Positions 7,450 to 31,029 of a stretch of DNA of 35,928 bases are shown here, piece by piece. This DNA comes from Sporichthyaceae bacterium (GTDB lineage Bacteria > Actinomycetota > Actinomycetes > Sporichthyales > Sporichthyaceae). Both the position numbers and the translations under genes were made by a program. Under the pieces are notes generated by a model, which was not told the origin of the DNA, did no database searches, and saw nothing but the letters and a program-made list of their open reading frames with translations. Positions within the stretch are counted from its first letter, which is position 1; each line of letters starts with the position of its first letter. The stretch spans positions 1 to 35,928 of the forward strand of contig DASXPS010000013.1 in assembly GCA_036493475.1 (NCBI GenBank), written 5' to 3'.

Positions 7450-7558
7450 CCTGCTGCTCTACCCAGCGTCGGAAAAGTTTGTCGGCGAAATTCCGGGGTC
7501 AGACATCCACTAGCGCCGCTGATCCCCGGCGTTCTCTTCTCATGCAAGGGGGTTGGTG

Positions 7559-10498
7559 GTGGCGACGATCGATCTGCCGATGCCGATGCCGGTGCGGGTG
7601 GAACGTCGGCGTGCGGCCGGGACCACGGGCTGGCAGGCCGACCTGCTCGCCGTGGCCGGGGACGTCCGCCTGGACGAGGGGGCGCGGGCGGCGTACGCCA
7701 CGGACTCCTCCAACTACCGGCAGGTGCCGCTGGCGGTGGTCACCCCGCGCACCGTCGCGGAGGCGGTCGCGGTGATCGAGGTCTGCCATCGGCACCGTGT
7801 TCCGTTGCTCTCCCGTGGCGGCGGTACCAGCCTGGCCGGGCAGACCACCAACGCCGCGGTGGTGCTGGACTGGACCAAGCACTGCAACCGGCTGGTGTCC
7901 ACCGACGCCGATGCCCGCACCTGTGTGGTGGAACCGGGAATCGCGTTGGACGACCTGAACCGAGCGTTGGCCCCGCACCGGCTGATGTTCGGACCGCGTC
8001 CGTCCACCCACCGCTCCTGCACGCTCGGCGGGATGATCGGCAACAACTCCTGCGGCGCCACCGCGCAGGCCTACGGCAAGACCGTGGACAACGTGCGCCG
8101 GCTCGAGGTGCTCACCGTCGACGGCGCGCGGTTCTGGGCCGGTCCCACCGACGAGGCGGCGTACACGGCTCTGGTCGACCGCGACGACCGGGTCGCCGAT
8201 ATTTACCGCACGCTGCGCGAGTTGGGCGAGGAGAACCGCGACGAGATCCGCGCCCGCTACCCGGACATCCCGCGCCGGGTTTCCGGCTACAACCTCGACT
8301 CGCTGCTGCCCGAACGCGGCTTCGACATTGCCCGCGCGCTGGTCGGCTCCGAGGGCACGTTGGTCACCGTGTTGCACGCCGAACTGGACCTGGTGCCGGT
8401 GCCCGAGGCCAAGGCTTTGGTGGTGTTGGGCTACCCGGACATCGCCACCGCGGCGGACGCGGTGCCCGCGGTTCTCCGGCACGACCCGTGGCAACTGGAG
8501 GGCATGGACGACATCCTGGTCAACCTCGACCGGGAGCTGGGCGTGGCCGAGGACGCCATCCAAGGGCTGCCCACCGGCGGCGGTTGGCTGATGGTGCAGT
8601 TCATCGGCGAGGACCAGGACGAGGCCGATCGCAAGGCGCAGTCCCTGCTCGACGCCATGCGCGCACGCGACCCAGCGCCGCACTGCTCGCTGATCGACGA
8701 CCCGGCCAAGGAAGCGCGCCTGCAGGATGTGCGTGAGGCCGGGTTGGGCTCCACCGCGCACCCACCCCAGCAGCACGAGACGTGGGAGGGCTGGGAGGAC
8801 TCCGCGGTCCCACCCGAACACCTGGGCGAGTACCTGCGGCAGCTGCGCGCGCTGATGAACAAATTCGGTTATCCCACCGGGGAAACCTCGTTGTACGGCC
8901 ACTTCGGCCAGGGCTGCGTGCACACCCGCATCCCGTTCGAGTTGCGCACCGCGGACGGCATCGCGCGCTACCGCGCATTCGTCGAGCAGGCGGCCGGGTT
9001 GGTGATTGCTCACGGGGGGTCGCTTTCCGGCGAGCACGGGGACGGGCAGTCCCGCGGAGAGCTGCTCATTCGCATGTTCGGTGCGCAGATTGTCTCCGCC
9101 TTCGGGCAACTGAAAAAGCTGTTCGACCCGGACAACCTGATGAACCCCGGCAAGGTCGTGCACGCCAACCCGCTGGATTCACACTTGCGCCTGGGCACCG
9201 ACTTCGCACCCGAGGAACCCAAGACCTTCTTCGCCTTCCCGGACGACGACAACAAGTTCAGCAAGGTCGCCCGCCGTTGTGTGGGCGTCGGCAACTGCCG
9301 CAACAGCAGCAGCGACGAGCAGGTGATGTGCCCGTCGTACATGGTCACCCGCGAGGAGGAGCACTCCACCCGCGGTCGCGCCCGACTGCTGTTCGAAATG
9401 ATCCGCGGCGAGACCATTACCGACGGCTGGCGGTCGACCGAGGTACGCGACGCATTGGACCTTTGCCTTGCCTGTAAGGGATGTAAGTCCGATTGCCCGG
9501 TGAACGTGGACATGGCCACCTACAAGGCCGAGTTCCTCGCCCACCACTACGCCGGGCGGGTGCGGCCCGCCGCGCACTACTCCATGGGCTGGCTGCCGGT
9601 GTGGGCGCGGATGGCCGCGGTCGCACCGGGTCCACTGAACGCCGCGCTCAAGGTGCCGCCATTGGCCGCGGCCGCAAAGCGCCTGGGCGGCGTCGCACCG
9701 CAACGCGAGTTGCCCGCCTTCGCCCCGCAGCGGTTCACCGACTGGTGGCAGTCCCGGCCCAAGACGGGGAACAAGGCCCCGCGCGGGCGGGTGCTGTTGT
9801 GGCCGGACACGTTCACCAACTCCTTCTCCCCGGAAGTCGGCCGCTCCGCGGTAAATGTGCTCACAGACGCGGGATTCCAGGTAGTGGTGCCCACCCAACC
9901 GCTGTGCTGTGGGCTGACCTGGATCTCCACCGGGCAACTGCGCATCGCCCGTCGGGTGCTGCGCCGCACGGTCGCGGCACTGCGTCCGTACCTGCGCGCC
10001 GGGGTCCCGGTGGTCGGCCTGGAACCCTCATGTACTGCGGTGTTCCGCTCCGACGGCACGGACCTGCTGCCCGGCGATGAGGATATGCGCCGGTTGTCGC
10101 TGCAGACCCGCACGCTGGCCGAGTTGCTTCTCGAACGCGCGCCGGAGTGGCACCCGCCGCTACGCGGCGGGGAGGCGATCATCCAGACCCACTGCCACCA
10201 GCACGCGGTGCTGAGCACGAACGCCGACGACGAACTTCTCGAGCGGGCCGGGGTCTCCGCGGAGCGGCTGGGGTCGGGATGTTGTGGCCTGGCGGGCAAC
10301 TTCGGCTTCGAGAAGGGGCACTACGAGGTGTCCATGGCCGCCGCCGAACGCGTGCTGCTGCCCCGGCTGCGCAACGCCCCGCCGACCACGACGGTGCTGG
10401 CCGACGGCTTCAGTTGCCGCACCCAGATTCAGCAGGGCACGGACGGATCGCGCCGGGCCGTGCACCTGGCCCAACTGTTGGCCGGTGATCTGCCGTGA
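7559..10498 (+). CDS. FAD-linked and Fe-S 2-hydroxyacid dehydrogenase (YdiJ-like)
   Basis: About 979 residues joining a vanillyl-alcohol-oxidase-type flavin half to a GlpC-like iron-sulfur half. The FAD-binding domain (about 45-260) has VTPRTVAEAV, SRGGGTSLAGQ and GGMIGNNSCGATAQAYGK. The FAD-oxidase C domain (to about 540) ends in GEHGDGQSRGEL and MNPGKV. Two Fe-S cysteine clusters follow, CVGVGNC and CLACKGCKSDCP. Two cysteine-rich CCG domains close the protein (PLCCGLTW, GSGCCGLAGNFG). E. coli YdiJ, with the same order and length, oxidises D-2-hydroxyglutarate, so a D-2-hydroxyacid is the likely substrate with electrons passed to the respiratory chain. Tandem TTG, GTG, GTG candidates exist; GTG 7559 has the best spacing from GGGGG. 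It overlaps the next gene. Confidence 0.88.
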   Translation: MATIDLPMPMPVRVERRRAAGTTGWQADLLAVAGDVRLDEGARAAYATDSSNYRQVPLAVVTPRTVAEAVAVIEVCHRHRVPLLSRGGGTSLAGQTTNAAVVLDWTKHCNRLVSTDADARTCVVEPGIALDDLNRALAPHRLMFGPRPSTHRSCTLGGMIGNNSCGATAQAYGKTVDNVRRLEVLTVDGARFWAGPTDEAAYTALVDRDDRVADIYRTLRELGEENRDEIRARYPDIPRRVSGYNLDSLLPERGFDIARALVGSEGTLVTVLHAELDLVPVPEAKALVVLGYPDIATAADAVPAVLRHDPWQLEGMDDILVNLDRELGVAEDAIQGLPTGGGWLMVQFIGEDQDEADRKAQSLLDAMRARDPAPHCSLIDDPAKEARLQDVREAGLGSTAHPPQQHETWEGWEDSAVPPEHLGEYLRQLRALMNKFGYPTGETSLYGHFGQGCVHTRIPFELRTADGIARYRAFVEQAAGLVIAHGGSLSGEHGDGQSRGELLIRMFGAQIVSAFGQLKKLFDPDNLMNPGKVVHANPLDSHLRLGTDFAPEEPKTFFAFPDDDNKFSKVARRCVGVGNCRNSSSDEQVMCPSYMVTREEEHSTRGRARLLFEMIRGETITDGWRSTEVRDALDLCLACKGCKSDCPVNVDMATYKAEFLAHHYAGRVRPAAHYSMGWLPVWARMAAVAPGPLNAALKVPPLAAAAKRLGGVAPQRELPAFAPQRFTDWWQSRPKTGNKAPRGRVLLWPDTFTNSFSPEVGRSAVNVLTDAGFQVVVPTQPLCCGLTWISTGQLRIARRVLRRTVAALRPYLRAGVPVVGLEPSCTAVFRSDGTDLLPGDEDMRRLSLQTRTLAELLLERAPEWHPPLRGGEAIIQTHCHQHAVLSTNADDELLERAGVSAERLGSGCCGLAGNFGFEKGHYEVSMAAAERVLLPRLRNAPPTTTVLADGFSCRTQIQQGTDGSRRAVHLAQLLAGDLP

Positions 10499-11589
10499 CC
10501 GTGTTCGTGGACTGCGTGCAGGCCGCTGCCTACACGGTGTCCACCGACGCACCCGAAGCCGACGGCACGCTGTCCTGGGACTCCACGACGATCGTGATCG
10601 TCGAGGTGCGGGCCGCCGGGGTGACCGGCATCGGTTGGACCTACGGCTCTGCGGCGTGCGTGCGCATCGTGGAAGACACCTTGCGTTCGGTGGTGGTCGG
10701 CCGCCCCGCGATGGACATCGGTGCGGCCTGGGCCGCGATGGCCGTGCAGCTACGCAACGTCGGCCGACCGGGTGCCGGCGGCATGGCGCTGTCCGCGGTC
10801 GATTGCGCGTTGTGGGATCTCAAGGCCCGCCTGCTCGGGCTGCCGCTACACGCGCTGCTCGGGGCCGTGCATTCCGACGTGCAGGTCTACGGCAGTGGCG
10901 GATTCACCAACCAGGACTCCGCTCAACTCACCGACCAACTGCAGGGCTGGTTGGACCGCGGCATGAACCGCGTGAAGATCAAAATCGCGGAGTCGTGGGG
11001 CGGCGCGGAAGCACGCGACCTGGAACGGGTCACGTTGGTCCGCACGGTGGTCGGGCCGGACGTCGAGGTGTTCGTCGATGCCAACGGCGGTTACACCGTC
11101 GCGCAGGCCGTTCGGGTGGCGCGCAAGCTCGAGAAACTCGACGTGCGCTGGTTCGAGGAACCGGTGTCCAGCGAGGACGTCGCGGGTCTGCGCTTCGTCC
11201 GCGACCACACCGACATCGAGATCGCGGCCGGCGAGTACGGGCACAGCCTCGCCGATCTGGCCCGCCTGTGCGAGGCCAGTGCCGTGGGTTGTCTGCAGAT
11301 CGACGTGACCCGCTGTGGTGGCATCACCGAGTTCGTCCGCGCGGCCGCCATGGCCGCCGCACACGGCCTGCAGGTGTCCGGACACTGCGCGCCACACCTG
11401 CACGCCGCGGTGCTCGCCGCGACCCCCAACGCCCGGCACCTGGAGTGGTTCCACGACCACGTCCGCATCGAGGACCGGCTGTTCGAGGGCACCCTGCAAC
11501 CACGTGACGGTGCTCTGGTGCTGCCCGCCGACCGGCCGGGGCACGGGCTGACCAGACGCGGTATCGAGCAGGAACGCCGCGTGGCCTGA
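10495..11589 (+). CDS. Enolase-superfamily (mandelate racemase/MLE) dehydratase or racemase
   Basis: 364 residues. An N-terminal capping domain is followed by the barrel with K161-x-K163 (VKIKI), metal ligands D195 (FVDANGGY), E221 (WFEEP) and E247 (AAGEY), then D270 (QIDVTRCGG) and H301 (GHCAPHLHAA). These are the lysine pair, three metal ligands and Asp-His dyad of the mandelate racemase subgroup, so base catalysis from both faces is possible. Known members dehydrate sugar acids or racemise alpha-hydroxyacids. The GTG start overlaps the TGA of the flavin/Fe-S dehydrogenase, which implies coupled translation and a linked 2-hydroxyacid or sugar-acid substrate. The exact acid cannot be told from sequence. 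Confidence 0.85.
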   Translation: MTVFVDCVQAAAYTVSTDAPEADGTLSWDSTTIVIVEVRAAGVTGIGWTYGSAACVRIVEDTLRSVVVGRPAMDIGAAWAAMAVQLRNVGRPGAGGMALSAVDCALWDLKARLLGLPLHALLGAVHSDVQVYGSGGFTNQDSAQLTDQLQGWLDRGMNRVKIKIAESWGGAEARDLERVTLVRTVVGPDVEVFVDANGGYTVAQAVRVARKLEKLDVRWFEEPVSSEDVAGLRFVRDHTDIEIAAGEYGHSLADLARLCEASAVGCLQIDVTRCGGITEFVRAAAMAAAHGLQVSGHCAPHLHAAVLAATPNARHLEWFHDHVRIEDRLFEGTLQPRDGALVLPADRPGHGLTRRGIEQERRVA

Positions 11590-14096: not shown

Positions 14097-15095
14097 ATGA
14101 GCGAGGCCGACCGGGTCGTGGTGGTCGGCGCCTCCGCCGGGGGCGTGGAGGTGCTGCGGGAGTTCTTTGGGCACCTGCCCGCCGATCTGTGCGCCTGCGT
14201 GTGCGTGGTGCTGCACATCCCGCCCGACGCGCCCAGCGCGCTGGCCCCGATTCTGAGCCGGGTATGTCCGCTGCAGGTACGATCCGCGGCTCCCGAGATG
14301 CCGCTGACCGCCGGCACGGTAGTGGTCGCGGTGGCCGACCATCACCTGTTGGTCGGCCCCACCCGGGTGGGCCTGAGTTCGGGCCCGCGGGAGAACGGTT
14401 ACCGCCCCGCGGTGGATGTGTTGTTCCGCAGCGCGGCACGGTGGTGGGGCCCGCGGACCGTCGCTGTGGTGCTGTCCGGGGCGTTGGACGACGGCGCTGC
14501 GGGCGCGCACGCGGTGGCCGCCCGGGGCGGCGTGGTGCTGGTGCAGGACCCAAAGACGGCGATGTATTCGGGGATGCCGTCGGCGGCTCGGGCGGCCGTC
14601 CCGGACTCGGTGGCGGCAACCCCCGAGCAATTGGCGGCAGCGGTGGTCGAGCTGTGCAAGCAGCCCGTGGATGAGGCGGCCGTGCCGCCGCTGGATCCGG
14701 TCCTGTTGGTGGAGACGGGGGTGGCCGAGTTGGACGAGGACGCTCATGCCGATCCTGATCGACCCGGCCGTCCGGCCGGCGTTGCCTGCCCGGACTGCCA
14801 GGGCGCGATGTTCGAGATTCAAGAGGGCACCTTGATCCGCTATCGGTGCCGGGTGGGGCACGCCTGGTCCCCGGAGACCCTGCTGGTCGAGCAGGTTTCC
14901 GCGGTCGAGGCGGCGCTGTGGTCGGCGATCCGCTCACTGGAGGAGCGGGCCGCGGTGCTCCGCAAACTCAGCCACCGCGACGGCGGCACGTTCCAACGGG
15001 CGCATCAGCAACGAGCGGCCGAGGCGGACGCCTCGGCGGCGGTGATCCGCGGGCTGCTGCGGGAGGGGCGGGTCGGGCCGGCGGTCGCCACCTGA
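14097..15095 (+). CDS. CheB-type methylesterase without receiver domain
   Basis: 332 residues. The methylesterase domain fills residues 5-190. Its catalytic triad can be read as S13 (GASAGG), H40 (VVLHIP) and D132 (LSGALDDGAAG), and MYSGMPSAA is the usual late motif. CheB normally removes methyl groups from glutamates of chemoreceptors and is switched on by its N-terminal receiver; here the receiver is absent. A C-terminal extension carries C231-x2-C234, C251 and H255, a possible zinc-binding knuckle, then a helical tail. It is followed 26 bases later by the CheR gene. No receptor, CheA or CheW gene is in the window, so control of something other than motility is likely. Confidence 0.87.
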   Translation: MSEADRVVVVGASAGGVEVLREFFGHLPADLCACVCVVLHIPPDAPSALAPILSRVCPLQVRSAAPEMPLTAGTVVVAVADHHLLVGPTRVGLSSGPRENGYRPAVDVLFRSAARWWGPRTVAVVLSGALDDGAAGAHAVAARGGVVLVQDPKTAMYSGMPSAARAAVPDSVAATPEQLAAAVVELCKQPVDEAAVPPLDPVLLVETGVAELDEDAHADPDRPGRPAGVACPDCQGAMFEIQEGTLIRYRCRVGHAWSPETLLVEQVSAVEAALWSAIRSLEERAAVLRKLSHRDGGTFQRAHQQRAAEADASAAVIRGLLREGRVGPAVAT

Positions 15096-15121
15096 GCGCG
15101 CCGGGGGGGTAACGTGCCGGC

Positions 15122-16990
15122 ATGTCCGAGGAGTCCCGGGAGTTCGAGGAACTGCTGGAGTTCCTACGCGACGCCCGTGGCTTCGACTTCACCGGCTACA
15201 AGCGGCCGAGCCTCATGCGGCGGGTTACCCGTCGCATGGAGCTCATCGGCAGCAAGGGCTACGCGGAGTACCAGGACCACCTGGCGATCAACCCCGACGA
15301 ATTCGGGGCCCTTTTCGACACGATTCTGATCAACGTCACCGGCTTCTTCCGGGACCAGGACGCATGGTCCCATCTTGGCTCCACGTTGCTGCCGGAGCTG
15401 CTGGCGAACCAACCGAACGACTCTCCGATCCGGGTGTGGAGTGCCGGCTGCGCGACCGGTGAGGAGGCCTACTCGGTCGCCATGGTGCTCGCCGAGGCAC
15501 TGAGCCCGGACGCCTTTCGCCAGCGGGTGAAGATCTACGCCACCGACATTGACGAGGGCGCCCTGGCGGTGGCCCGCACGGCCGCCTACGGCGAACGCGA
15601 GATGCGCCCCGTGCCGCCGGACCTGCGCGAACGCTATTTCGATCAGGCGGGCGGTAATCGGTGGGCGTTCCGTCCGGACTTCCGCCGCTGCGTGATTTTC
15701 GGCCGCAACGAGCTGGTTTCCGATGCGCCGATCAGTCGCGTCGACCTGCTGGTTTGCCGCAACACGTTGATGTACTTCAACGCCGAGACGCAGGCGAAGG
15801 TGCTGGACCGGTTCCATTTCGCGCTGCGGCCCGACGGCGTGCTCTTTCTCGGTAAGGCTGAGATGTTGCTCTCGCACAGCACGTTGTTCGGGCCGGTGGA
15901 TCTGCGCCGTCGCTTTTTCCGGCCGGTGCGGCGTGCGGGAGGTGGCGCCCCGGCGCTCACCTCGCGGGCGTTGCTGGAGCGGACGGCTCCGCTCGGGGTC
16001 GACCGGTTGCACCACCAGGCGATGATGGTCAGTCCGGTGGCCACGCTCTTGGTCGATGCGGACGGGGTGCTGGCCGGGATGAATCCCCGCGCGGAGTCGC
16101 TGTTCGGACTGGCCGCCCATGGCGTTGGCCGCCCGATGCGCGAGCTGGAAATCGCCTTCCGACCGGTGATGTTGAGCCCCGCCATCGATCAGGTGCTCGC
16201 CGAGCGCCGACCGGTTTGGTTGCGCGAGGTCGAATGGGACCGCTCCGCCGAGGACCACCGGGTGTTGGACCTACTGGTCGCGCCGCTGCTCGGCGGCAAC
16301 GGGGAGGGGATCGGGGTGTCCGTCATGGGGACTGACGTCACCCGGTACCGCGACCTGCAGAACGACCTGGAATCGGCCAACCGGCAACTGGAGACCGCCT
16401 ACGAGGAGCTGCAGTCCACGGTCGAAGAGCTGGAGACCACCAACGAGGAACTGCAGTCCACGGTCGAGGAACTCGAGACCACGAACGAGGAACTCCAGTC
16501 GACCAACGAGGAATTGGAGACGATGAACGAGGAGCAGCAGTCGACCAACGACGAGCTGCGCTCGATCAACGACGAACTGCGCGATCGCACCCAGGAACTG
16601 CACGACGCCGGCGAGTACACCGAGGCCATCTTGGCCAGCCTGCGCTCCGCGGTGATGGTGGTGGACCGGGAGTTCATCGTGCGCACCTGGAACGCCCGGG
16701 CCGAGGACTTCTGGGGGCTTCGGGCGGGTGAGGTCGTCGGCCGGCAGCTGCTGTCGCTGGACAGCGGACTACCGGTGGAGGCCATCAAGCCGATGATCCG
16801 CCGGTTGCTGCTCGACGAGTCGAGCGGGGAGCTGCGCATGGATGCGATGAACCGGCGCGGCCGCACGGTGGAGATCCGCGTGGTCGGCTCGGCGCTGCGC
16901 GAGGCGGGCGGCGAGCCGAGCGGGGTGGTGCTCGTGGTGGACGAACTGCCGACTTTGGACGAGGCGAGCAACGGCCCCGCCGAGGGCTGA
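15122..16990 (+). CDS. CheR-type methyltransferase with PAS domains and long coiled coil
   Basis: 622 residues. The CheR N-terminal helical domain (about 5-60) and SAM-dependent methyltransferase domain (about 65-280) show NVTGFFRD (71-78), VWSAGCATGEEAYS (105-118), YATDID and LLVCRNTLMYF. A PAS domain spans about 300-415. A coiled coil made of 14-residue repeats (about 415-500) and a second PAS domain (about 505-615) follow. CheB/CheR-PAS hybrids usually continue into a histidine kinase; this protein stops after the second PAS and has none. It should methylate glutamates on a partner, countered by the adjacent CheB. Its stop codon abuts that of the convergent STAS gene. A weak ribosome site precedes the ATG. 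Confidence 0.87.
   Translation: MSEESREFEELLEFLRDARGFDFTGYKRPSLMRRVTRRMELIGSKGYAEYQDHLAINPDEFGALFDTILINVTGFFRDQDAWSHLGSTLLPELLANQPNDSPIRVWSAGCATGEEAYSVAMVLAEALSPDAFRQRVKIYATDIDEGALAVARTAAYGEREMRPVPPDLRERYFDQAGGNRWAFRPDFRRCVIFGRNELVSDAPISRVDLLVCRNTLMYFNAETQAKVLDRFHFALRPDGVLFLGKAEMLLSHSTLFGPVDLRRRFFRPVRRAGGGAPALTSRALLERTAPLGVDRLHHQAMMVSPVATLLVDADGVLAGMNPRAESLFGLAAHGVGRPMRELEIAFRPVMLSPAIDQVLAERRPVWLREVEWDRSAEDHRVLDLLVAPLLGGNGEGIGVSVMGTDVTRYRDLQNDLESANRQLETAYEELQSTVEELETTNEELQSTVEELETTNEELQSTNEELETMNEEQQSTNDELRSINDELRDRTQELHDAGEYTEAILASLRSAVMVVDREFIVRTWNARAEDFWGLRAGEVVGRQLLSLDSGLPVEAIKPMIRRLLLDESSGELRMDAMNRRGRTVEIRVVGSALREAGGEPSGVVLVVDELPTLDEASNGPAEG
16406..16573 (+). repeat. Four 42-base in-frame repeats coding a coiled coil
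   Basis: Units start at 16406, 16448, 16490 and 16532, each coding a version of ELQSTxEELETxNE (14 residues, two heptads). The first two are nearly identical in protein but differ at synonymous sites, so the array is old and kept by selection. Such S-helix-like linkers are usual between PAS domains of CheB/CheR hybrids. Confidence 0.85.
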
Positions 16991-21851: not shown

Positions 21852-22667
21852 TCAGAACTGCGGATCGAGCACGCTGGGGAACCGTGGCGCCCGCTTCTCC
21901 CGGTGCGAGGCCAGGCCCTCCACCACATCGTCGCCGCCGAAGCCGAGGAACTCCAGCGCCAGCGAGGCGTCGAAAATCGGCCCGGCCTGCCGGTACCAGT
22001 GGTTGAGCGTGTGCTTGGTGAACCGCAGTGCGGGCTGGGCCATGTTCGACAGCTGCACGGCCACCTCCAGCGCCTTGTCCTGCAGCTGGTCGTCGTCCAC
22101 GCACAACGAGACCAGTCCGATGCGCTCGGCCTCCTCGCCGGTCACCGTCTCGCAGGTGAGCAGGTAGTACTTGGCCTTGGCCATGCCGCAGAGCAGCGGC
22201 CAGCAGATCGCCGCGTGGTCGCCGGCGGCCACGCCGAGGCGGGTGTGCCCGTCGATGATGCGTGCGGTGCGCGCGACGATCGACACGTCGGACAGCACAC
22301 CCGCGACCAGGCCTGCGCCCACCGCCGGGCCGTGCATGGCGCTGACGATGATCTTCGAGCAGTTGATGACGTTCCACACCAGGTCACGGGCCTCGCGCAG
22401 CACGCCCATGCGCTTGCCGGTCTGGCCGATCATGGAGTCGACGAGCTCGAAGCTGCCGCCGGCCGAGAAGCCCTTGCCCGCGCCGCGCAGGATCGCCACC
22501 CGGGTGTCCGGATCCTTGTCCACGTCCAGCCACACGTCGCAGAGCTCGCGGTGCCCGTCCGGGGACACCGCGTTGAGCCCCGGACCGTCCAGCGTGATGC
22601 GCAGGATGCCGTCTGCCGGACGGTCGAAGGTCAGGGTCGGGTAGACGGCGGCGAAGTCGATGGCCAT
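21852..22667 (-). CDS. Crotonase-family (enoyl-CoA hydratase/isomerase) protein
   Basis: 271 residues. The oxyanion-hole loops [10 protein letters not shown] (65-73) and [10 protein letters not shown] (111-120) mark a CoA-thioester enzyme of the crotonase fold. By my alignment the two glutamates that catalyse hydration in classical enoyl-CoA hydratase correspond to H141 and Y167 (HTRLG and AKYYLLTCE), so simple hydration is doubtful. Isomerase, hydrolase, retro-Claisen or dehydrating activity is possible. The ATG at 22667 has an AGGACC-type ribosome site. It lies 20 bases after the F420 oxidoreductase and is the last gene of the SDR-LLM-crotonase set, which points to catabolism of an acyl-CoA or cyclic ketone. 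Confidence 0.83.
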
Positions 22668-22687
22668 AAGGGTCCTTTCGGGACGGG

Positions 22688-23737
22688 TCAGCGGCGGGCG
22701 GCGGGCTTGGCGTCGCGGACGGTACGGGCGATCTCGCTCCACCTGCCGAGGTGCTCCGGGTGCCGCGTCAAGTCGTCGACGGTGAGGTAGGAGATGACCC
22801 GTTCGGCCAAGCCGCCGTAGCGGGTCACCAGCCGGTCGGCGATCTCATCCCAGGGGCCGATGACCGCGTAGTGGTCGAGCATCTCCTCGGTGATGGTGTT
22901 GGCCAGCGCGTCGATGTCGCCGGCCTTCAGCGCGGTGTTCAGCGCCTCCGAGACGCCGTCGAAACCGAGGTCGGTGAACTGGAACGCATAGTTCTTGGTG
23001 GACCCGTAGAAGCCGATCTGCTTGCGGGCTCGGCGCACCAGGAACGCACGCTCCTCGGGGGTGTCGCCGGGTATCACGAACACCGGGATCAGCAGGTCCA
23101 CCTCCGCGGGGGAGCGCCCGACCTTGTCCGCACCGAGCTGCAGGTCGGGCAGCAGGCGATGCTCGAGGTAATGCATGGAGTGCAGCGGGTGGACGTGGAT
23201 GCCGTCGGCGTACTGGCCCGCCATCGCCACCATCCACGGACCCACCGCGGAGATGTCCACCTTGATATCCCCGTAGGCGTGCAACTGCGGGCTGAACGCC
23301 TCCGGCAGCAGGGTCAGGTCGTAGTGCTTGCTGTGGTGGTCGAGTTTCTTCTCCCGCCGGAACGCCGCCAGGATGTCCTTGACCGCGAGCAGGTAGTCGC
23401 GCATGCGCGGGCCGGGCGGGTCGAAGGCGGCGCCGTAGCGGCGCTCGATGTGCGCCCGCACCTGGCTGCCCAGCCCCAGCCGGTAGCGGCCGTTGGTGTT
23501 GTCCGCCAGCTCCCAGGCGATGTTCGCGGCGATCATCGGGCTCATCGGGAAGGCCACCGCGATGCCGGTGGTGAACGTCAGCGACGGCGCGGCGGTGGCC
23601 GCGGCCGCGATGCTCATCCACGGGGTCTGACCGGTGTCGACGAAGGTCATCCCGGTGAACCCGGCCTGCTCGGTGCGCCGGGCCAGTTCGGCCACCTCGG
23701 TCCACCGGCTCGGGCCGACCATCACATCGAACTTCAT
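22688..23737 (-). CDS. F420-dependent LLM-class oxidoreductase (TIGR03617-like)
   Basis: 349 residues of the luciferase-like fold. [12 protein letters not shown] at the start, [16 protein letters not shown] near 33-48, [25 protein letters not shown] near 55-79 and [19 protein letters not shown] near 84-101 agree with the TIGR03617 group found in mycobacteria and relatives. The expected cofactor is reduced F420 in the cytoplasm. It lies 31 bases downstream of the SDR gene and 20 bases upstream of the crotonase gene. It is a different subgroup from the enzyme at 3515, sharing only the fold. The substrate is probably a hydrophobic CoA-linked or cyclic intermediate, by context alone. Confidence 0.87.
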
Positions 23738-23768
23738 GAGCTCTCCCTGTCGCAGGTGTGATGGGTCC

Positions 23769-24515
23769 TCAGGCCATGGTCAGGCCGCCGCTGACGGACA
23801 GCGTCTGGCCGGTGATGAAGCGCGCGCCGTCCGACGCCAGGAACACCACGGCGGGCGCGATGTCGTCCGGATCGGCCAGCCGGCGCATGGGGATGGCCTT
23901 CTTCAGCGCGTCGACGAACTTGTCGCCGGTGCCCAGCTCCCCGGCCATCCGGTGGATCAGCGGGGTGTCGGTGGGTCCGGGGCACACCACGTTGACGGTG
24001 ATGCCGTGCTTGGCGACCTCGCGGGCCACGCTCTTGGAGAAGGCCACCACCGCGCCCTTGGCGCCGGCGTAGACGGCCTCCAGCGAGGAGCCGACCCGGG
24101 CCGCATCGGAGGCCACCGACACAATGCGCCCACTGCCGCGCTCGATCATCCGCGGCAGCACCGCGTGCACGGTGTTCAACGGGCCGCGGTAGTTGATCGC
24201 GATGACCTTGTCCCACAGGTCCGGGGTGCTATCCACGAACGGCACGAAGCGGTCCCAGCCGGCCACGTTGATCAGGCTGACGATGGGGCCGAGCTCGGTC
24301 TCCACCGAATCGACGGCCGCCTTTACCGCGGCGGTGTCGGAGACGTCCACCCCCAGACCGACGTGGCCGTCGCCGGCCAGCTCGCCCGCCAGCGCCAGCG
24401 CCGGCTTCTCGTCGAGGTCGAGCACCACCACTCGACGCCCATCGGCCGCGAGGTGGCGGCACACCGCGGCCCCGATCGCGCCCGCGCCACCGGTAACCAC
24501 CGCGATCTCGGCCAT
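23769..24515 (-). CDS. Short-chain dehydrogenase/reductase
   Basis: 248 residues, classical SDR. The cofactor motif TGGAGAIG (8-15) and an acidic residue after the second strand (VVVLDLDE) favour NAD(H). INVAG is the NNAG-equivalent. Catalytic residues are N108, S136, Y149 and K153 (YAGAK). NVVCPGPTDTPL and a Gly-rich C-terminus (GQTLSVSGGLTMA) complete the pattern. The family oxidises or reduces hydroxy/keto groups, often at the 3-hydroxyacyl-CoA step. It is first in the minus-strand set with the F420 oxidoreductase and crotonase. GAGGGG lies nine bases upstream of the ATG, and an operator-like inverted repeat lies in the leader. Confidence 0.9.
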   Translation of the reverse strand: MAEIAVVTGGAGAIGAAVCRHLAADGRRVVVLDLDEKPALALAGELAGDGHVGLGVDVSDTAAVKAAVDSVETELGPIVSLINVAGWDRFVPFVDSTPDLWDKVIAINYRGPLNTVHAVLPRMIERGSGRIVSVASDAARVGSSLEAVYAGAKGAVVAFSKSVAREVAKHGITVNVVCPGPTDTPLIHRMAGELGTGDKFVDALKKAIPMRRLADPDDIAPAVVFLASDGARFITGQTLSVSGGLTMA

Positions 24516-24684: not shown

Positions 24685-25380
24685 TTACGCCGCGTGGCCG
24701 AGGTAGCGGGCGAACAGGTCCTCGCCGTCAAGTTCGCCGGGTTCGCCGGCGAAGACGATCTGACCCTTCTGCAGCAGGTAGACGTAATCGGCCAGGGCCA
24801 ACGCCTTGGTCACGTACTGCTCGACCAGCAGCAGGCTGGCGCCGCCGGCCGCGAGGCGGTGCAGGAACTCGAAGATCTCATCGACGATGATCGGCGCGAG
24901 GCCCATGGAGACCTCGTCGAGCAGCACGGTGGTCGGGTTCTGCACGTAGGCCTTGGCCAGGGCCAGCATCTGCTGCTCACCGCCGGACATGGTCCCGGCG
25001 ACCTGGCTCAAGCGCTTGCCCAGGATGGGGAACGCCTCGGCGGCCTTGGCGATCGCAGCCTGTTCCTGCCCGCGCTGGGACTGCACCACGATGTTCTCCC
25101 GCACGGTCAGCCCCTGGAACACCCCGCGGCCCTCGGGGATGTGGCACACCCCGTGCTTCACCAGCTCGTGCGGGGGTGCGCCCGTTACGTTGCGGCCGTT
25201 GACCAGCAACTCCCCGGCCTGCGGGGGCAGCAGCCCGGCGGCCACCCGCAGCATCGTTGTCTTGCCCGCGCCGTTGGCGCCGAGCAGCGCGACCACCGAC
25301 CCGGCGGGCACCACCAACGTGATGTCGTGCAGCACCCTGCTGGTGCCGTAGCCGGCGGACAGCTCACGCAGCTCGAGCAT
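24685..25380 (-). CDS. livF: Branched-chain-type ABC transporter ATP-binding protein LivF
   Basis: 231 residues. Walker A is GANGAGKTT (34-42), the signature is SGGEQQ near 133 and Walker B is TTVLLDEVSMGLAP with the following His-loop segment. HIPEGRGVFQGLTVRENI is diagnostic of the LivF side of the branched-chain amino acid and amide importers (HAAT family). It should energise the adjacent permease and work at the inner membrane face. Normally LivF pairs with LivG, which is absent here, so it may act as a homodimer or borrow a distant LivG. It lies 27 bases after the lipoprotein gene, last in the operon, followed by a strong inverted repeat. Confidence 0.9.
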   Translation of the reverse strand: MLELRELSAGYGTSRVLHDITLVVPAGSVVALLGANGAGKTTMLRVAAGLLPPQAGELLVNGRNVTGAPPHELVKHGVCHIPEGRGVFQGLTVRENIVVQSQRGQEQAAIAKAAEAFPILGKRLSQVAGTMSGGEQQMLALAKAYVQNPTTVLLDEVSMGLAPIIVDEIFEFLHRLAAGGASLLLVEQYVTKALALADYVYLLQKGQIVFAGEPGELDGEDLFARYLGHAA

Positions 25381-25407
25381 GCGACTTCACCTTTCCGGCA
25401 GGTTGGC

Positions 25408-26910
25408 TTACACGCCGCAGACCGGCTTGGCGCCGACCGGCGCGGACCAACCCTTGGTGGTGAGCAGTTCGTAGAACACGCAGCCGTTGCTCTTCGGCAG
25501 GCCGGCCCCGAACGTCAACGGCCCGGTCAGACCACCGAGGTTGTTGTTGTGGATCTTGTGCAGCCCGTCGATGATCATCGCCGAGGTCAGCGTGCCCTGT
25601 GCGGCGCTGCCGAGCTCGGCCACTGCGGCCTCCACCAGCTTCGCCGCGGTCCACATCTGCACTGAGGAGCCGGAGGTCTGCTCGCCCGGCGCGTACTTGG
25701 CGATCGCGTCCTGGTACGCCTTCAGGCCCGGCGTCGAACTCTCCGTCCAGGGCGCGGTGCCCGTCGCGGTGGCCAGGGTGAACTGACGCAGCGTCGGATC
25801 CGTGGACTGGCCGGGGGAAATCGTGCCGCCGAGGCCGCCCATGGCGGGTTGATATCCGATCGCCTGGCAGGAGCGGGCCACCCGGGCCATCTCGGTGCCG
25901 TCCATGCCCAGCAGCAGTTGTGTGACGCCGGCGCTCTTCGCGCTCTGGCACTGGGCGGTGAAGTCCGTCTGGGTCAGCGAGATCGCCGAGCTGTAATCGA
26001 AGGTCGCGCCCGCCCTCTTGGCCAGGACCTTGGCGACCGAGTTTAGGTAGGTGCACGCCTTGACCTCGACGCAGTACAACAGCCCGGCCTTGGTCCTGCC
26101 GGCGGCCACGTTCTGCTTGATGATGCCGACCGCTTGATCGTCGACGCTGGCGCCCTGCGGGAACAGGTACGGGCTGGACCCGTACCATTCCGGCGCGATG
26201 ATGTCGCCGCCGACGGCCGGTACCTTGTTGGCCTCCAGACCCTGCTTGAAACCGGCCATGCTGAAGTCGTTGTGCCCGCCGGTGAAGGCGATGACGTGGT
26301 CGTCCTTGACGAACTGCGAGATCAGCGCGGAGGAGCGCGCCGGGTCACCGGCATCGTCGCCGAAGTAGAGCTTGACCGGGTGGCAGGCCAGCCCGCCGCG
26401 GTCATTGACGTCCTTGACCCAGATCGCCAGCGCCGTGCGGCCGCCGGTCCAGGCCGGTCCGGTCACTCCGGAGAACGTGCCGACCTGCCCGATCGCCACC
26501 GGGTCGCCCTGCTTGGTGCACGTCGCGGGGGCACCCGCCGCCGCGGCCGATTGCGTGGTGACGGGGTTCTTCTTGGCGCCCGCCTTGGTCGGCGTGGTGG
26601 CGCTGGCCGCTCCGGCCGCCGGGCTGGTGCCCGTCGCGGTGGCTGCGCCGCCCGCCGGTGCCGTGCCGCCGGTTTCCGCGGCGGGGGCCCCGGCCACCGG
26701 GGCCGCGGCGGTGGCGCCACTGGCGCTGACCGCGGATGCGGCGCCGGCGGCTGCCGCCTGCTTGATCTGGTCGAGCATCGCGGGGGTCAGCGAACCGGTG
26801 CCCCCGGACTCGGCCGCGATCTGCGTATCGGAGGCCCGCGTGCCGCAGGCACTGAGCAACAACAGGCCGGCGGTGAGGACCGCCGGGATTCGGCGCCATG
26901 TCTTGTTCAT
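25408..26910 (-). CDS. ABC transporter substrate-binding lipoprotein (LivK-like)
   Basis: 500 residues. The signal peptide ends in a lipobox LLLSACG with C22 as the lipidation site. A long Ala/Gly/Thr/Pro-rich stretch (about 45-130) tethers a periplasmic-binding fold of the Leu/Ile/Val type (about 135-500). Its blocks include GQVGTFSG, WVKDVNDRGGLACHPVKL, PAVGGDIIAPEWYG and a final CVFYELLTTKGW. This clade often serves aromatic, short-chain or sterol-derived acids rather than amino acids, so the ligand is unknown. Its ATG overlaps the TGA of the permease gene (ATGA). The frame extends far upstream, but only as antisense within the permease gene. Confidence 0.9.
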   Translation of the reverse strand: MNKTWRRIPAVLTAGLLLLSACGTRASDTQIAAESGGTGSLTPAMLDQIKQAAAAGAASAVSASGATAAAPVAGAPAAETGGTAPAGGAATATGTSPAAGAASATTPTKAGAKKNPVTTQSAAAAGAPATCTKQGDPVAIGQVGTFSGVTGPAWTGGRTALAIWVKDVNDRGGLACHPVKLYFGDDAGDPARSSALISQFVKDDHVIAFTGGHNDFSMAGFKQGLEANKVPAVGGDIIAPEWYGSSPYLFPQGASVDDQAVGIIKQNVAAGRTKAGLLYCVEVKACTYLNSVAKVLAKRAGATFDYSSAISLTQTDFTAQCQSAKSAGVTQLLLGMDGTEMARVARSCQAIGYQPAMGGLGGTISPGQSTDPTLRQFTLATATGTAPWTESSTPGLKAYQDAIAKYAPGEQTSGSSVQMWTAAKLVEAAVAELGSAAQGTLTSAMIIDGLHKIHNNNLGGLTGPLTFGAGLPKSNGCVFYELLTTKGWSAPVGAKPVCGV

Positions 26911-28817
26911 CGATTCGCTCCCAGCGCGGAGGGGGTGCGTGCCGCGGGCCCGGCAGACAGCCGCGCGGCGGTGGTGCTCTCCCGACGCCAGGCCCACTGC
27001 TGCGCCAGGTGGCGCAGTGGCACGTCCGGTCGGGTAGTGGCGAAGACCGCGGCGAGGATCGCCGCGGCGCCGAAGAGGGTTTGCAACGCGTCGTTCCAGC
27101 CGTGGTTGTAGGCCGGCAGGACGAACACCAGCACCGGTCCGAGGACCGCGCCGACGATGGTGGAGTGACCGGCGGCGGCCAGCACCGCCAGCAGGATCAA
27201 CGACATCACGAAGTTGAACCCGGTACCGCCGACGGAGCCGAACTGGCCGGCGTAGAGCGCGCCGGAAATGCCGGCGAGGAACGCCGAGATGCAGAACACC
27301 AGCACTCGGGTCACGTTGGCCGAGGTGCCCAGTGTGGCCAACGCGGTCGGGGAGTCGCCGAGGCTGCGCAGCAGTCGACCCAGTCGGCTGTTCTGGATGG
27401 CCAGGATCAGCGCGATGCCGACCACCGCGAAACCGAGCAGCAGGTAGTAGTAGCGGGTGTCGGAGGAGAAACCGTGCGGCCGCTGAGTCTGCAGGTCGGC
27501 CAGGCCGAACATGTAGCTCTTCGTGTAGAAGAACTGCGCGATGAAGATGCCGAAGCCCAACGTGGCCAGTCCGAGGAACAACCCGGACAGCCGGATCGCG
27601 GGAATGGCCACGATCGCGCCGACCGGGACGGTGATGAGCCCGGCCCACAGCACGGCGAGCCACCACGGCACCCCGCCGCCGACGGCGTGCGCGAAAGCCG
27701 CGCCGCCGACCGCGGCCAGCGCCACCTGACACAGCGACACCTGGCCGGAGGTGTGCACCAGCAGGCCGAGGGACAGGAACAGCAGCACCTGGCTCATCGC
27801 GGAGATCCACACCGGCAGCCGGGTACCCACCACGTGGGGTACCAGCAAGGCGCCGAGCAGCACCACCGCGCCGCCGCCGAGGCGCAGCCGTGGCGGCAGG
27901 TGCAGCGGCGGGGCGGTACGCGCGCGCACCTGCCCGCCCAGGTCGCCCAGCCGATGACGGCCGAGCACCAGCAACGCGATGAACAGCACGATGAACGGCA
28001 GGTTGAAGTCCAGGCCCTGCAACCACTCGTGGCTGGCGGTCTCCTTGGACACCAATTTCTGCGCGATGCCGATGCCGATGCCGCCGGCGTAGGCCATCGG
28101 CAGGCTGCGGAACGCGCCCAGGGCGGCCGCGCCGAAGGCCTGCACCACCAGCAGAGCAAGGAAGGTGACATCCAGTTCCTGTTGCTGGGAGGCCAGCAGC
28201 ACACCGGACGCGGCGGCGAACACCGAGCCGATCACCCAGGCCTGACGGCGGACCGCGGCCGGGGCCACCCCGGCGGTGTCCAGCAGCGCCGGGTCGTCCA
28301 CGACGGCGCGCATCATGGTGCCCAGTCGAGAACGTTCGACCAGCAGGTACAACGCGAGCGCCGAGGCCGCGACCACGATGAAAATGATCACCGAGTCCTT
28401 CGCCACGGCGACCCCGGAGATGCTGAACGCCTTGTCGCGCGGCAGGAACGCCTTGAACTGGCGGAAATCCGAGCCGTAGATCCAGGTGATGACCGCGCGG
28501 ACCAGCAGCAGAATGCCGATGGTGCCGACGATCTGATAGGACACCGGTACCCGCGCCAACCGCCGGGCCATCGCCTCCAGAATCAGGCCGAGCACCACGC
28601 CGAACAAGCCGATGGCGATCAACCCGGCAAGCACGCGGGACATCCCGTGTTGGTCGCGCAGCTCGTAGAACACATAGGCGGCGGCGGCGCCCAGCGCGCC
28701 GTGGCCGAAGTTGAACAAACCCGAGGTGCGGTAGGTCAGCACCAAGCCCATGGCGGCCAGGCCGTAGATCGAGCCGTACACGACGCCGAAGACCAGATAG
28801 GGCACGTAGTTATGCAT
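26907..28817 (-). CDS. Fused LivH-LivM ABC permease
   Basis: 636 residues, two permease domains in one chain. The LivH half (about 1-300) has GVVYGSIYGLAAMGLVLTYRTSGLFNFGHGALG and MMRAVVDDPALLDTAGV. The LivM half (about 320-610) has GLLVHTSGQVSLCQVALAAVGGAAFAHA, IPAIRLSGLFLGLATLGFG and the cytoplasmic coupling loop SLGDSPTALATLG. Around 16-18 membrane segments are visible. It should form the channel of the importer with LivF and the lipoprotein. The ATG at 28817 overlaps the preceding small membrane gene by eight bases; a GTG at 28832 is an alternative. The last 30 residues form a cytoplasmic Ala/Arg-rich tail. Confidence 0.9.
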   Translation of the reverse strand: MHNYVPYLVFGVVYGSIYGLAAMGLVLTYRTSGLFNFGHGALGAAAAYVFYELRDQHGMSRVLAGLIAIGLFGVVLGLILEAMARRLARVPVSYQIVGTIGILLLVRAVITWIYGSDFRQFKAFLPRDKAFSISGVAVAKDSVIIFIVVAASALALYLLVERSRLGTMMRAVVDDPALLDTAGVAPAAVRRQAWVIGSVFAAASGVLLASQQQELDVTFLALLVVQAFGAAALGAFRSLPMAYAGGIGIGIAQKLVSKETASHEWLQGLDFNLPFIVLFIALLVLGRHRLGDLGGQVRARTAPPLHLPPRLRLGGGAVVLLGALLVPHVVGTRLPVWISAMSQVLLFLSLGLLVHTSGQVSLCQVALAAVGGAAFAHAVGGGVPWWLAVLWAGLITVPVGAIVAIPAIRLSGLFLGLATLGFGIFIAQFFYTKSYMFGLADLQTQRPHGFSSDTRYYYLLLGFAVVGIALILAIQNSRLGRLLRSLGDSPTALATLGTSANVTRVLVFCISAFLAGISGALYAGQFGSVGGTGFNFVMSLILLAVLAAAGHSTIVGAVLGPVLVFVLPAYNHGWNDALQTLFGAAAILAAVFATTRPDVPLRHLAQQWAWRRESTTAARLSAGPAARTPSALGANR

Positions 28818-29370
28818 GACGGCCGCCCCCACCGGTGGCGGCCGGCAGGCACACGCCGCACGCCTGCAGGCCCGCCTTGGCGAGGTCGGACTCCGCGGCG
28901 AAGGTGGCCTTTTTCCCCTGCAGCATCAGACAATCCGCGCCGTGGTAGTGACGCATACCCGGCGCCACGCCGAACCCGACAGCCACCTCCGCGGTGGGCG
29001 CCGCGACCCCGGCCACCGCGGCACGTTCGCCCGCGCTCACCCGGCGGTCGATCTCCGCGTACACCGCGCGACGCAGCTGGCTGATCCGAATCATCGCGGC
29101 CAGCAGCCAGACCACCATGCCCATACCGCCGACGATCAGCCCGATGATGCCCAGCGCCAGCCATCGGGTTTGTCGCTCCAGCGCGACCGCGTCGCTGATG
29201 CCGAACCAACCGACCACCAACAACACCAGACCGATAACGATGAACAGGCCGGGCAGCAGCGCATCCCGACGTGCCCACGGCTCCCGTCCGTCGTGCAGGG
29301 CAACCGGACGGTGGGAGGCCGCCCGCCGCTTCGCCGACGCGCGGGTACCGCTGATCGGGATCGAGGTCAT
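28810..29370 (-). CDS. Small membrane protein with C-terminal HYHGADC/CGVC motif
   Basis: 186 residues, family not recognised. Basic N-terminus, two membrane segments (about 40-60 and 72-96), then a cytoplasmic helical part. The C-terminal domain contains MRHYHGADCLMLQGK followed about 20 residues later by ACGVC. Such His/Cys pairs (H-x-x-x-x-C ... C-x-x-C) are seen in small metal- or nucleic-acid-binding modules of actinobacterial proteins, so a zinc knuckle is possible. It overlaps the previous small membrane gene by ATGA and the LivHM gene by eight bases. It should thus be made in step with the permease and may be an accessory subunit. Function is unknown. Confidence 0.7.
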   Translation of the reverse strand: MTSIPISGTRASAKRRAASHRPVALHDGREPWARRDALLPGLFIVIGLVLLVVGWFGISDAVALERQTRWLALGIIGLIVGGMGMVVWLLAAMIRISQLRRAVYAEIDRRVSAGERAAVAGVAAPTAEVAVGFGVAPGMRHYHGADCLMLQGKKATFAAESDLAKAGLQACGVCLPAATGGGGRHA

Positions 29371-29669
29371 CGACCGGCGCCGGCCGTCGCCGCCCCGATC
29401 GGCTCACCCGTGGCGTCGAGGCGGTGGCGCATGGCGCGCAGTTCGCGCCATTGGTCGCGCAGGTCCGCGGACAACCACAGCATCCCGCCCATGCCGAGCA
29501 GGAAGACCCCGCCCAGCCCCTCCGAGGCTATGTACGGCAATTGCTTGGACACGAAGCCGGTGTCGCTGACGTGGTACCAGCCGACGATCAGCAGGATCGC
29601 CCCGGCGAGCGCCGCGCTGATGGCGGCCACCCGGTCCCACTGCGCCTGCAGAACTTTGACCAGGTCCAT
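29367..29669 (-). CDS. Two-helix membrane protein of unknown function
   Basis: 100 residues. Two membrane segments (about 17-35 and 50-66) are joined by the short loop HVSDTGFVSKQLPYIASEG. A charged cytoplasmic helix follows (LRDQWRELRAMRHRLDATGE). No known family is recognised. The start ATG shares one base with the stop of the secreted protein gene (TGATG), and its stop overlaps the next start (ATGA). The GWYHVSD of this protein resembles GWFGISD in the next protein, and both pair two helices, so the two may be distant relatives or partners. A membrane anchor for the secreted protein or a transporter accessory is inferred. Confidence 0.68.
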   Translation of the reverse strand: MDLVKVLQAQWDRVAAISAALAGAILLIVGWYHVSDTGFVSKQLPYIASEGLGGVFLLGMGGMLWLSADLRDQWRELRAMRHRLDATGEPIGAATAGAGR

Positions 29670-30982
29670 CAGCGCACTCCTCGATAGGCCAGCAGCACGG
29701 TGCCGACCAGTGCGGACAGGCCGACGGCGGCCACCAGCGAGTAGATCCAGCCGACGTCGGGCTGCTTCTGGCCGGCCGTGGCGGCGGCCAGGGTGGTGAA
29801 GTCAACGGTGGGCGGCACGTGCACGGTCAGCGCGGGGTTGCCGGCCGGCGCCGTGCTGAGACCGGTGGTCGGGGTGCCCCCCGTGCCCGGCGGCAGCAGG
29901 CCCGCCGTGGCCGGCGTGCTCACCGCGGGGGCGCCGGCGGCCGGGGTGGTGCCGGCCGGGGCGCCGGTGCCGATCGAGGGCTGCTGCTCGCCCCCACCCG
30001 CGTAGGTGATCTCGGCCTTGACCAGACCCAACGCCAACGTCACCGGGGTCTCCCCGGAGAACCCACCGGGCGTGCCCGGCGGCGGGGCGGGCAGCGTGGT
30101 GTTGATCTGCAGCCCGGCGCCCGTGATGCCGTTGGTCGTCTGCTGGGGCTGTTGATAGACCGTGTGGTACCCGGCCTTGGTCAGCGCGGCGACCACGTCG
30201 GCGACCGGCACTTCGGTGTCATTCGCCGACTGCCCGGGCGCGATCACCCGGAACTTGCCGTCGACCAGGCTGATGGCCGGCGGGGAGATTTTCTGGCTCG
30301 GTCCGTTGGTTCCGGGCGGTGGCGGCAGGGTCAAGGTCAGACCGGTTGCGGACAGGCTGGTGAAGGCCAGTTCCGACGATCGGGTCAGCGTGCCGGAGGC
30401 GTCCCGGCCGGCCATCGCCGTCGCGTGCAGGCCGCTGATCACCAGGTCGTCGCCGAGCCGGATGAGGTTCGCCTCGGTGGACCCATCGGCGGTGACGGTG
30501 TCGCCGTCGCGCAGCACCCGGGCGGTGGAGATGGCCCCGACGCTGTCCCCGCCGCCGGTCGCGCTGGCCTGGGTCAGCGTCTGGGCGCTCTCCGCGCGCA
30601 GATCAATACCGGGGTAGCTCAGCCGCGCCGGGGGGTCGCCCAGGCTGGTGGTGACGATGAACGGATACGCCGGCAATGGCGCGCCGGTGCTGCCCGCGAC
30701 GGTGCTGGGCAGACTTTGGCCCGCGTCCCCCGGGTACGGCGTGGAGGCCATGGCATCGGACTGCTCGATGGAGTTCTGCGTGGCGATCGCGTACGGACCG
30801 GAAACCTCGGGTTGGATGCCCAACGGCACCGACTCGTTGCTCAGATACATGCGCAGCCCACCGGCCTCGGTGCTGGCCGAGTAGGTGGAATCAGCGGCGG
30901 CGCGCCCGCCCGGCAGCAGCACGACCGCACCGGTAAGTGCGACGACGGCGGCAAGCGACGCCATACGCGTGGCGTACGTCAT
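29669..30982 (-). CDS. Secreted, C-terminally membrane-anchored protein of unknown function
   Basis: 437 residues. A signal peptide (about 1-30, ending GGRAAA) is followed by a mainly strand-like extracytoplasmic domain (about 33-325) with many Ser/Thr/Gly. Notable parts are TEAGGLRMYLSNESVPLGIQ, DGKFRVIAPGQSANDTEVP and DVVAALTKAGYH. An Ala/Pro/Thr/Gly linker (about 325-390) leads to a C-terminal membrane helix (WIYSLVAAVGLSALVGTVLLAY). The architecture suits a cell-surface or periplasm-facing receptor. The ATG has no ribosome site, but a leader ORF with a strong site ends over it (ATGA). It heads the structural part of the ABC importer operon. I do not recognise the family. Confidence 0.72.
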   Translation of the reverse strand: MTYATRMASLAAVVALTGAVVLLPGGRAAADSTYSASTEAGGLRMYLSNESVPLGIQPEVSGPYAIATQNSIEQSDAMASTPYPGDAGQSLPSTVAGSTGAPLPAYPFIVTTSLGDPPARLSYPGIDLRAESAQTLTQASATGGGDSVGAISTARVLRDGDTVTADGSTEANLIRLGDDLVISGLHATAMAGRDASGTLTRSSELAFTSLSATGLTLTLPPPPGTNGPSQKISPPAISLVDGKFRVIAPGQSANDTEVPVADVVAALTKAGYHTVYQQPQQTTNGITGAGLQINTTLPAPPPGTPGGFSGETPVTLALGLVKAEITYAGGGEQQPSIGTGAPAGTTPAAGAPAVSTPATAGLLPPGTGGTPTTGLSTAPAGNPALTVHVPPTVDFTTLAAATAGQKQPDVGWIYSLVAAVGLSALVGTVLLAYRGVR

Positions 30983-31029
30983 AGGCGGAATATACGGATA
31001 TGACGGCTGAATGGAACCCGGGTCCGCAT
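30979..31029 (-). CDS. Arg-rich leader peptide ORF (16 residues)
   Basis: The peptide reads MRTRVPFSRHIRIFRL: five Arg, plus rare ATA (codon 13) and CTA (codon 16) codons. Its start has the best ribosome site of the region, GGGAGGGG at 31034-31041. Its TGA overlaps the ATG of the secreted protein gene, which lacks its own site. Translation of the operon should therefore pass through this ORF. A regulatory attenuator is possible but unproven. Confidence 0.6.
   Translation of the reverse strand: MRTRVPFSRHIRIFRL

Follow-up and report, generated by a model that had tools for sequence, protein, structure and literature searches.

What do genes for three unrecognized envelope proteins do at the head of an operon for a Liv-type importer? 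Few uptake systems are as common in bacteria, and a binding protein, a permease and ATPases are generally considered sufficient for them. The question is raised by a locus in the 35,928 nucleotides of a soil actinobacterium analyzed here (the window), for which a preliminary description had proposed that the three proteins are accessory components of the importer.

The operon and its neighbors

Six genes, all on the minus strand, follow one another in the order p437-p100-p186-LivHM-SBP-LivF. p437 (30982..29669) encodes a predicted exported, C-terminally anchored protein; it is overlapped by 1 base by p100 (29669..29367), which in turn is overlapped by 4 bases by p186 (29370..28810). The gene for the 636-aa fused LivH-LivM permease (28817..26907) overlaps p186 by 8 bases when its start is placed at the ATG at 28817 (a GTG at 28832 is the alternative), and shares 4 bases with the gene for the lipoprotein SBP (26910..25408; lipobox Cys22). 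The LivF-type ATPase gene (25380..24685) comes after a gap of 27 bases. The ORF coordinates bear out the unidirectional six-gene operon of the preliminary description, with its overlaps of 1, 4, 8, and 4 bases and the gap before LivF; its two further claims, a LivH-LivM fusion and a single ATPase, agree with the two PF02653 (BPD_transp_2) stretches found in one chain (E 7e-51) and with the ABC_tran match of LivF, the sole ATPase of the operon. An ORF of 872 aa (25408-28026) lying over LivHM and SBP was rejected as a separate gene: it is the SBP frame with a spurious upstream start.

SBP matches PF13458 (Peripla_BP_6; E 4e-39), and the ATPase matches the UrtE/LivF models best of all (E 4e-58 and 6e-53), below their equivalog cut-offs. 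As far as sequence similarity goes, LivHM, SBP, and LivF are confirmed as ordinary HAAT-class parts. The likeness to HAAT/Liv importers (LivFGHMJ, UrtABCDE) lies in these three, by Pfam/NCBIfam similarity, whereas the fused LivH-LivM, the lack of LivG and the three extra envelope proteins set the window operon apart. We know of no such extra envelope proteins in classical Liv/Urt systems.

Downstream on the same strand lie genes for an SDR (24515..23769, 169 bases after LivF), a luciferase-like monooxygenase (23737..22688) and an enoyl-CoA hydratase (22742..21852). This stretch (21852..24515) is likely a continuation of the operon or a set of adjoining catabolic genes, and it suggests CoA-dependent catabolism. 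Since the genes that flank the Streptomyces and Haloechinothrix copies are not uniform, no substrate is claimed. Elsewhere the window holds a CheB methylesterase gene followed by one for a CheR methyltransferase with PAS domains, an apparent hybrid signaling pair (14097-16990), and, at 7556-11589, a gene for a large FAD-linked oxidase that contains Fe-S domains and, after it, one for a mandelate racemase/muconate lactonizing-type enzyme.

Recurrence with one permease clade

The window genome (G000; 4.27 Mb) has 14 full LivHM of the clade, and p437, p100, and p186 were found near all 14, using profiles built from the clearest copies. In G003, a complete genome from the family of the window genome, 24 such LivHM occur, with p437 near every one and p100 and p186 near 23; the remaining LivHM has p437 and lacks the other two. 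Conversely, the strong p100 genes of G003 adjoin a LivHM in 23 of 23 cases. The counts from these two genomes are unbiased by the manner of locus discovery. About 85,000 species genomes were also scanned with a p100 motif, so that the presence of p100 in the resulting loci is by construction; the 41 further loci whose length suffices to show LivHM all have p186, and all but three, which are cut by a contig end, have p437. The hosts include Streptomyces, Pseudonocardiaceae, Actinophytocola, Haloechinothrix, Nocardioides, Frankiales, and Acidimicrobiia, and the nearest relatives of the window locus include Sporichthya loci. Six more distant fused LivHM in G000 and G003 have no trio nearby, those of the own genome being 25-28% identical. 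The plasmid records searched gave no match. A trio operon with LivHM in two frames (L073) occurs in a MAG labeled Acidobacteria, by misbinning or transfer.

That the trio might be unique to the window locus is ruled out by the own-genome paralogs and by the loci in other genomes. The co-occurrence with LivHM fusions that the preliminary description anticipated in relatives is almost without exception; absence or scattering of the trio there was looked for and did not occur. The proposal of accessory components of an ABC importer is thereby well supported. The three families are tied to one permease clade in a conserved association, and since dozens of instances in the family and across the phylum show them beside this kind of importer, they are probably unrecognized parts of the uptake machine. 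We put at about 0.6 the probability that the trio are accessory subunits dedicated to a large sub-group of Liv-type (HAAT) importers in actinobacteria; their physical association with the importer we infer. Conservation of the operon is also compatible with a regulator or anchor role.

Not all genes of the operon keep to the permease gene equally strictly. In 77 of 80 loci nothing interrupts the order p100-p186-LivHM, and on this ground p100 and p186 rank as the partners nearest to the permease; SBP, LivF/LivG, and p437 shift, multiply or disappear among the same loci. Across 50 operons, with LivHM divergence removed and 500 permutations, p437 covaries with SBP (0.21; 0/500 permutations) but not with LivF (-0.10), p186 with LivF (0.21; 2/500) and barely with SBP (0.06; 54/500), and p100 with p186 (0.26; 0/500). 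Given small effects among related operons, covariation is supportive and not proof. It agrees with the independently predicted topology, which has p437 outside and the p186 tail inside.

p100 and p186: paired two-helix proteins

Hydropathy gives two TM helices for each protein, as the preliminary description had it. In p100 the loop is conserved (QLPYL) and TM2 is followed by the motif SADLRDxW; in p186 a long TM2 is predicted to continue into the cytoplasm, where it is followed by a small C-terminal domain. The N and C termini of both are predicted inside from positive-inside charges. The tail of p186 bears a putative metal/thiol site recognized by motif conservation, H143-x3-C147 ... C171-x2-C174 (28849..28944, minus strand), which corresponds to the HYHGADC/CGVC motif of the preliminary description. 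The ligands are invariant in 42 aligned proteins, 14 paralogs and 21 of 21 distant relatives. Among 18 p186-type tails, six match the Ada metal-binding domain (PF02805) weakly (best E 4e-4) and 13 match DUF6233 weakly; the window tail matches neither. One of the 18 segments compared departs from its locus by a single leading residue, outside the motif. What the tails have in common with these domains is their shortness, a CxxC at the end and paired ligands before it. The Ada domain has four cysteine ligands, whereas p186 has a histidine in place of the first and carries the tail on a membrane protein. Fold comparison of p186 was little informative, aligning mostly long-helix and helical-hairpin proteins.

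Profile comparison shows homology between p100 and p186 (hhalign 96.7%, E 4.6e-10). In one paralogous operon (L038; G000:C104:1-9000, at 5735-6550) the two are naturally fused into one protein of 271 residues, which speaks for adjacent positions. The simplest reading of the sequences would be that one ancestral two-helix protein was duplicated into p186 and a p100 that lost the tail. Relatives with two TM helices and HxxxC..CxxC were found with the p186 profile in 33 of 396 sampled Actinomycetota genomes, a few by weak or p100-like matches only, and in at least 14 of these 33 genomes, among the loci examined, they adjoin LivF, LivG, LivH/M, SBP or p437 genes. A minimal version occurs in two 9 Mb genomes of one genus (L240 in G132, L241 in G165): a p186-like gene lies directly upstream of a fused LivHM, the SBP is divergent, and no p437 or p100 was detected. 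Another branch has an unfused SBP-LivH-LivM-LivG-LivF set followed by p437 and p100, without p186 (L129 and L130, on G000 contigs C93:44000-58000 and C109; the same set in G014, G044, and G056); its p437 is homologous to that of the window (hhalign 99%, E 4e-18).

That two-helix permease partners exist is shown by the cobalt ECF importer CbiMNQO, in which the two-helix protein CbiN places its loop over CbiM's metal pocket (PMC7689651). p100 and p186 are like CbiN in their two TM helices, short outer loop and coupling of the gene to one permease, and differ in being paired and in the His-Cys3 tail of p186; the likeness supports a similar way of working, not membership, and CbiN was not among the matches above threshold in Pfam scans of the two proteins.

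The same features can be read as a signaling module, dispensable for transport, in which p437 senses substrate or occupied SBP outside and p100 and p186 relay the signal through the metal/thiol tail to a partner in the cytoplasm. An ectodomain joined to TM helices and small cytoplasmic tails is a sensor-like topology, the invariant His-Cys3 site is possibly redox- or zinc-responsive, and the covariation of p186 with LivF beyond LivHM is only modest. We nevertheless regard this reading as doubtful, because no kinase, anti-sigma or output domain was found in p100 or p186 by Pfam/NCBIfam scans, and the trio remains contiguous with the permease gene.

p437 and the tethered binding protein

AlphaFold2 and hydropathy predict a signal peptide (residues ~1-31) and a C-terminal TM helix (residues 411-436; 29752..29675) in p437, in keeping with the earlier account of a secreted, C-terminally anchored protein of 437 residues. 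Between them AlphaFold2 places a beta-rich ectodomain (residues 33-330; 30886..29993), mostly at pLDDT 90 or more, and a disordered linker of about 60 residues (335-395; 29980..29798), all encoded on the minus strand. Pfam and NCBIfam scans gave no match above curated cut-offs, either for p437 or for p100 and p186, so that all three proteins are indeed unrecognized. Profile searches of the PDB with p437, p186, and the p186 tail alone gave no significant match. Nor did fold comparison of p437 give a trustworthy one: the best rows were porin barrels (Foldseek TM about 0.15, VIA Z at most 6), read as a generic beta meander and not as evidence of a porin. Against the choice-of-anchor P family (NF040603), the p437 of the window gave no match at E 0.5, whereas one own-genome paralog (contig C104) scores above the cut-off (30.3 vs. 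27 bits) and another two fall short of it; the likeness is to surface proteins, by family name only. To our knowledge no function is known for that family. Given the lack of a trustworthy fold match, the term receptor rests on topology and covariation. A position of p437 on the wall side, on a tether, would be consistent with the structure model and with its covariation with SBP.

SBP is tethered as well, through a low-complexity stretch between the lipid cysteine and the domain (26503..26844, minus strand). The Ala/Gly linker of the preliminary description is thus present, although it measures 114 residues and not 85; its composition is 80% A/G/P/T/S/V, and tethers of 91-133 residues were found in 12 of 12 SBPs measured. 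Long tethers of this kind, the linker of p437 and its distant kinship with choice-of-anchor P surface proteins would all suit a scaffold by which the importer and its tethered SBP are positioned or retained in a thick wall, the trio taking no part in the transport cycle. Such a scaffold seems rather unlikely, as of all the parts p100 and p186 follow the permease most strictly, and a His-Cys3 site in the cytoplasm is hard to reconcile with a role in the wall.

Exchangeable ATPases and binding proteins

The missing LivG was considered as a defining trait and rejected. LivG is absent from the window operon as described, but the 80 loci do not support it as a mark of the group: LivG lies near LivHM in 58, LivF alone in 11 (six of them in G000) and neither ATPase in four, seven being undecidable. 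LivG thus stands together with trio genes in 58 of 73 classifiable loci (one of these without p100 and p186), and the trio is therefore no replacement for LivG. In the own genome LivG is near eight of the 14 paralogous operons, and several LivG-like genes elsewhere in that genome could serve the window operon. Its loss is scattered yet clustered on the LivHM tree and limited to certain lineages (11 changes of the LivG-bearing label vs. 19.5 in shuffles), and the four-member clade of the window permease has no known LivG-bearing member. Up to five SBP genes stand in tandem beside one permease. They do so downstream of the p437-p100-p186-LivHM block of L167 (G003:C1:5353000-5371500), the nearest relative of the window permease, where no LivF or LivG was detected within 18.5 kb. 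Operons with neither ATPase point to ATPase sharing in trans, and the losses of LivG together with the tandem SBPs indicate that ATPases and SBPs are exchangeable while the trio is fixed. A distinct single-ATPase Liv importer, in which the trio compensates for LivG, would draw on the six LivG-less operons of 14 and on their clustering; it is very improbable in view of the 58 loci that have LivG and trio genes and of the operons that have neither ATPase. Mere hitchhiking in a lineage-specific expansion of a gene block, without joint function, might be imagined from the 11-31 p100 genes per genome in one family, but is scarcely credible when the block also occurs in Streptomyces, Pseudonocardiaceae, Nocardioides, and Acidimicrobiia with LivHM near 40-50% identity and the invariant residues kept throughout.

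How the accessory subunits may work

If the trio does consist of accessory subunits, p437, flexibly tethered, would serve as a second extracytoplasmic receptor or as a scaffold. Working in the wall zone alongside SBP, itself a tethered lipoprotein, it could present or retain the ligand or dock SBP. p100 and p186 would be paired two-helix duplicates lying against LivHM, as CbiN does on CbiM, with their short outer loops near the mouth of the permease and their tails on the cytoplasmic side. To judge from the motif, zinc is probably bound by the His-Cys3 site of p186, which may dock to the ATPase or regulate it. In operons without LivG, LivF would act as a homodimer or with LivG made elsewhere in the genome.

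A bolder proposal, which we hold only tentatively and consider less probable than its negation, is that of an undescribed, phylum-wide HAAT class with obligatory membrane partners. It would have started from an ancestral two-helix protein whose cytoplasmic His-Cys3 zinc/thiol switch gates the ATPase; one clade would have duplicated it into p100 and p186 and added the tethered receptor p437. The resulting importers would have two extracytoplasmic receptors, and their binding proteins and ATPases would be interchangeable.

Significance

An actinobacterial ABC importer for degradable carboxylic acids has been described in CamABCD of Rhodococcus jostii RHA1, which imports cholate metabolites (PMC8399759); the likeness to the present importers is by that description. 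A search of the open literature, subscription papers being outside its scope, found no paper on Sporichthya ABC importers, fused LivHM in the group or choice-of-anchor P. Nor did it find a description of the trio-bearing HAAT importers.

If our reading is true, three additional envelope proteins are required by an entire actinobacterial branch of these importers, which can number about two dozen in one genome, and current annotation misses parts of the machine. The invariant His-Cys3 site of p186 offers a single-residue handle on regulation. The trio would also provide a testable model of how monoderm, thick-walled bacteria capture bulky nutrients, e.g., steroid or terpenoid acids.
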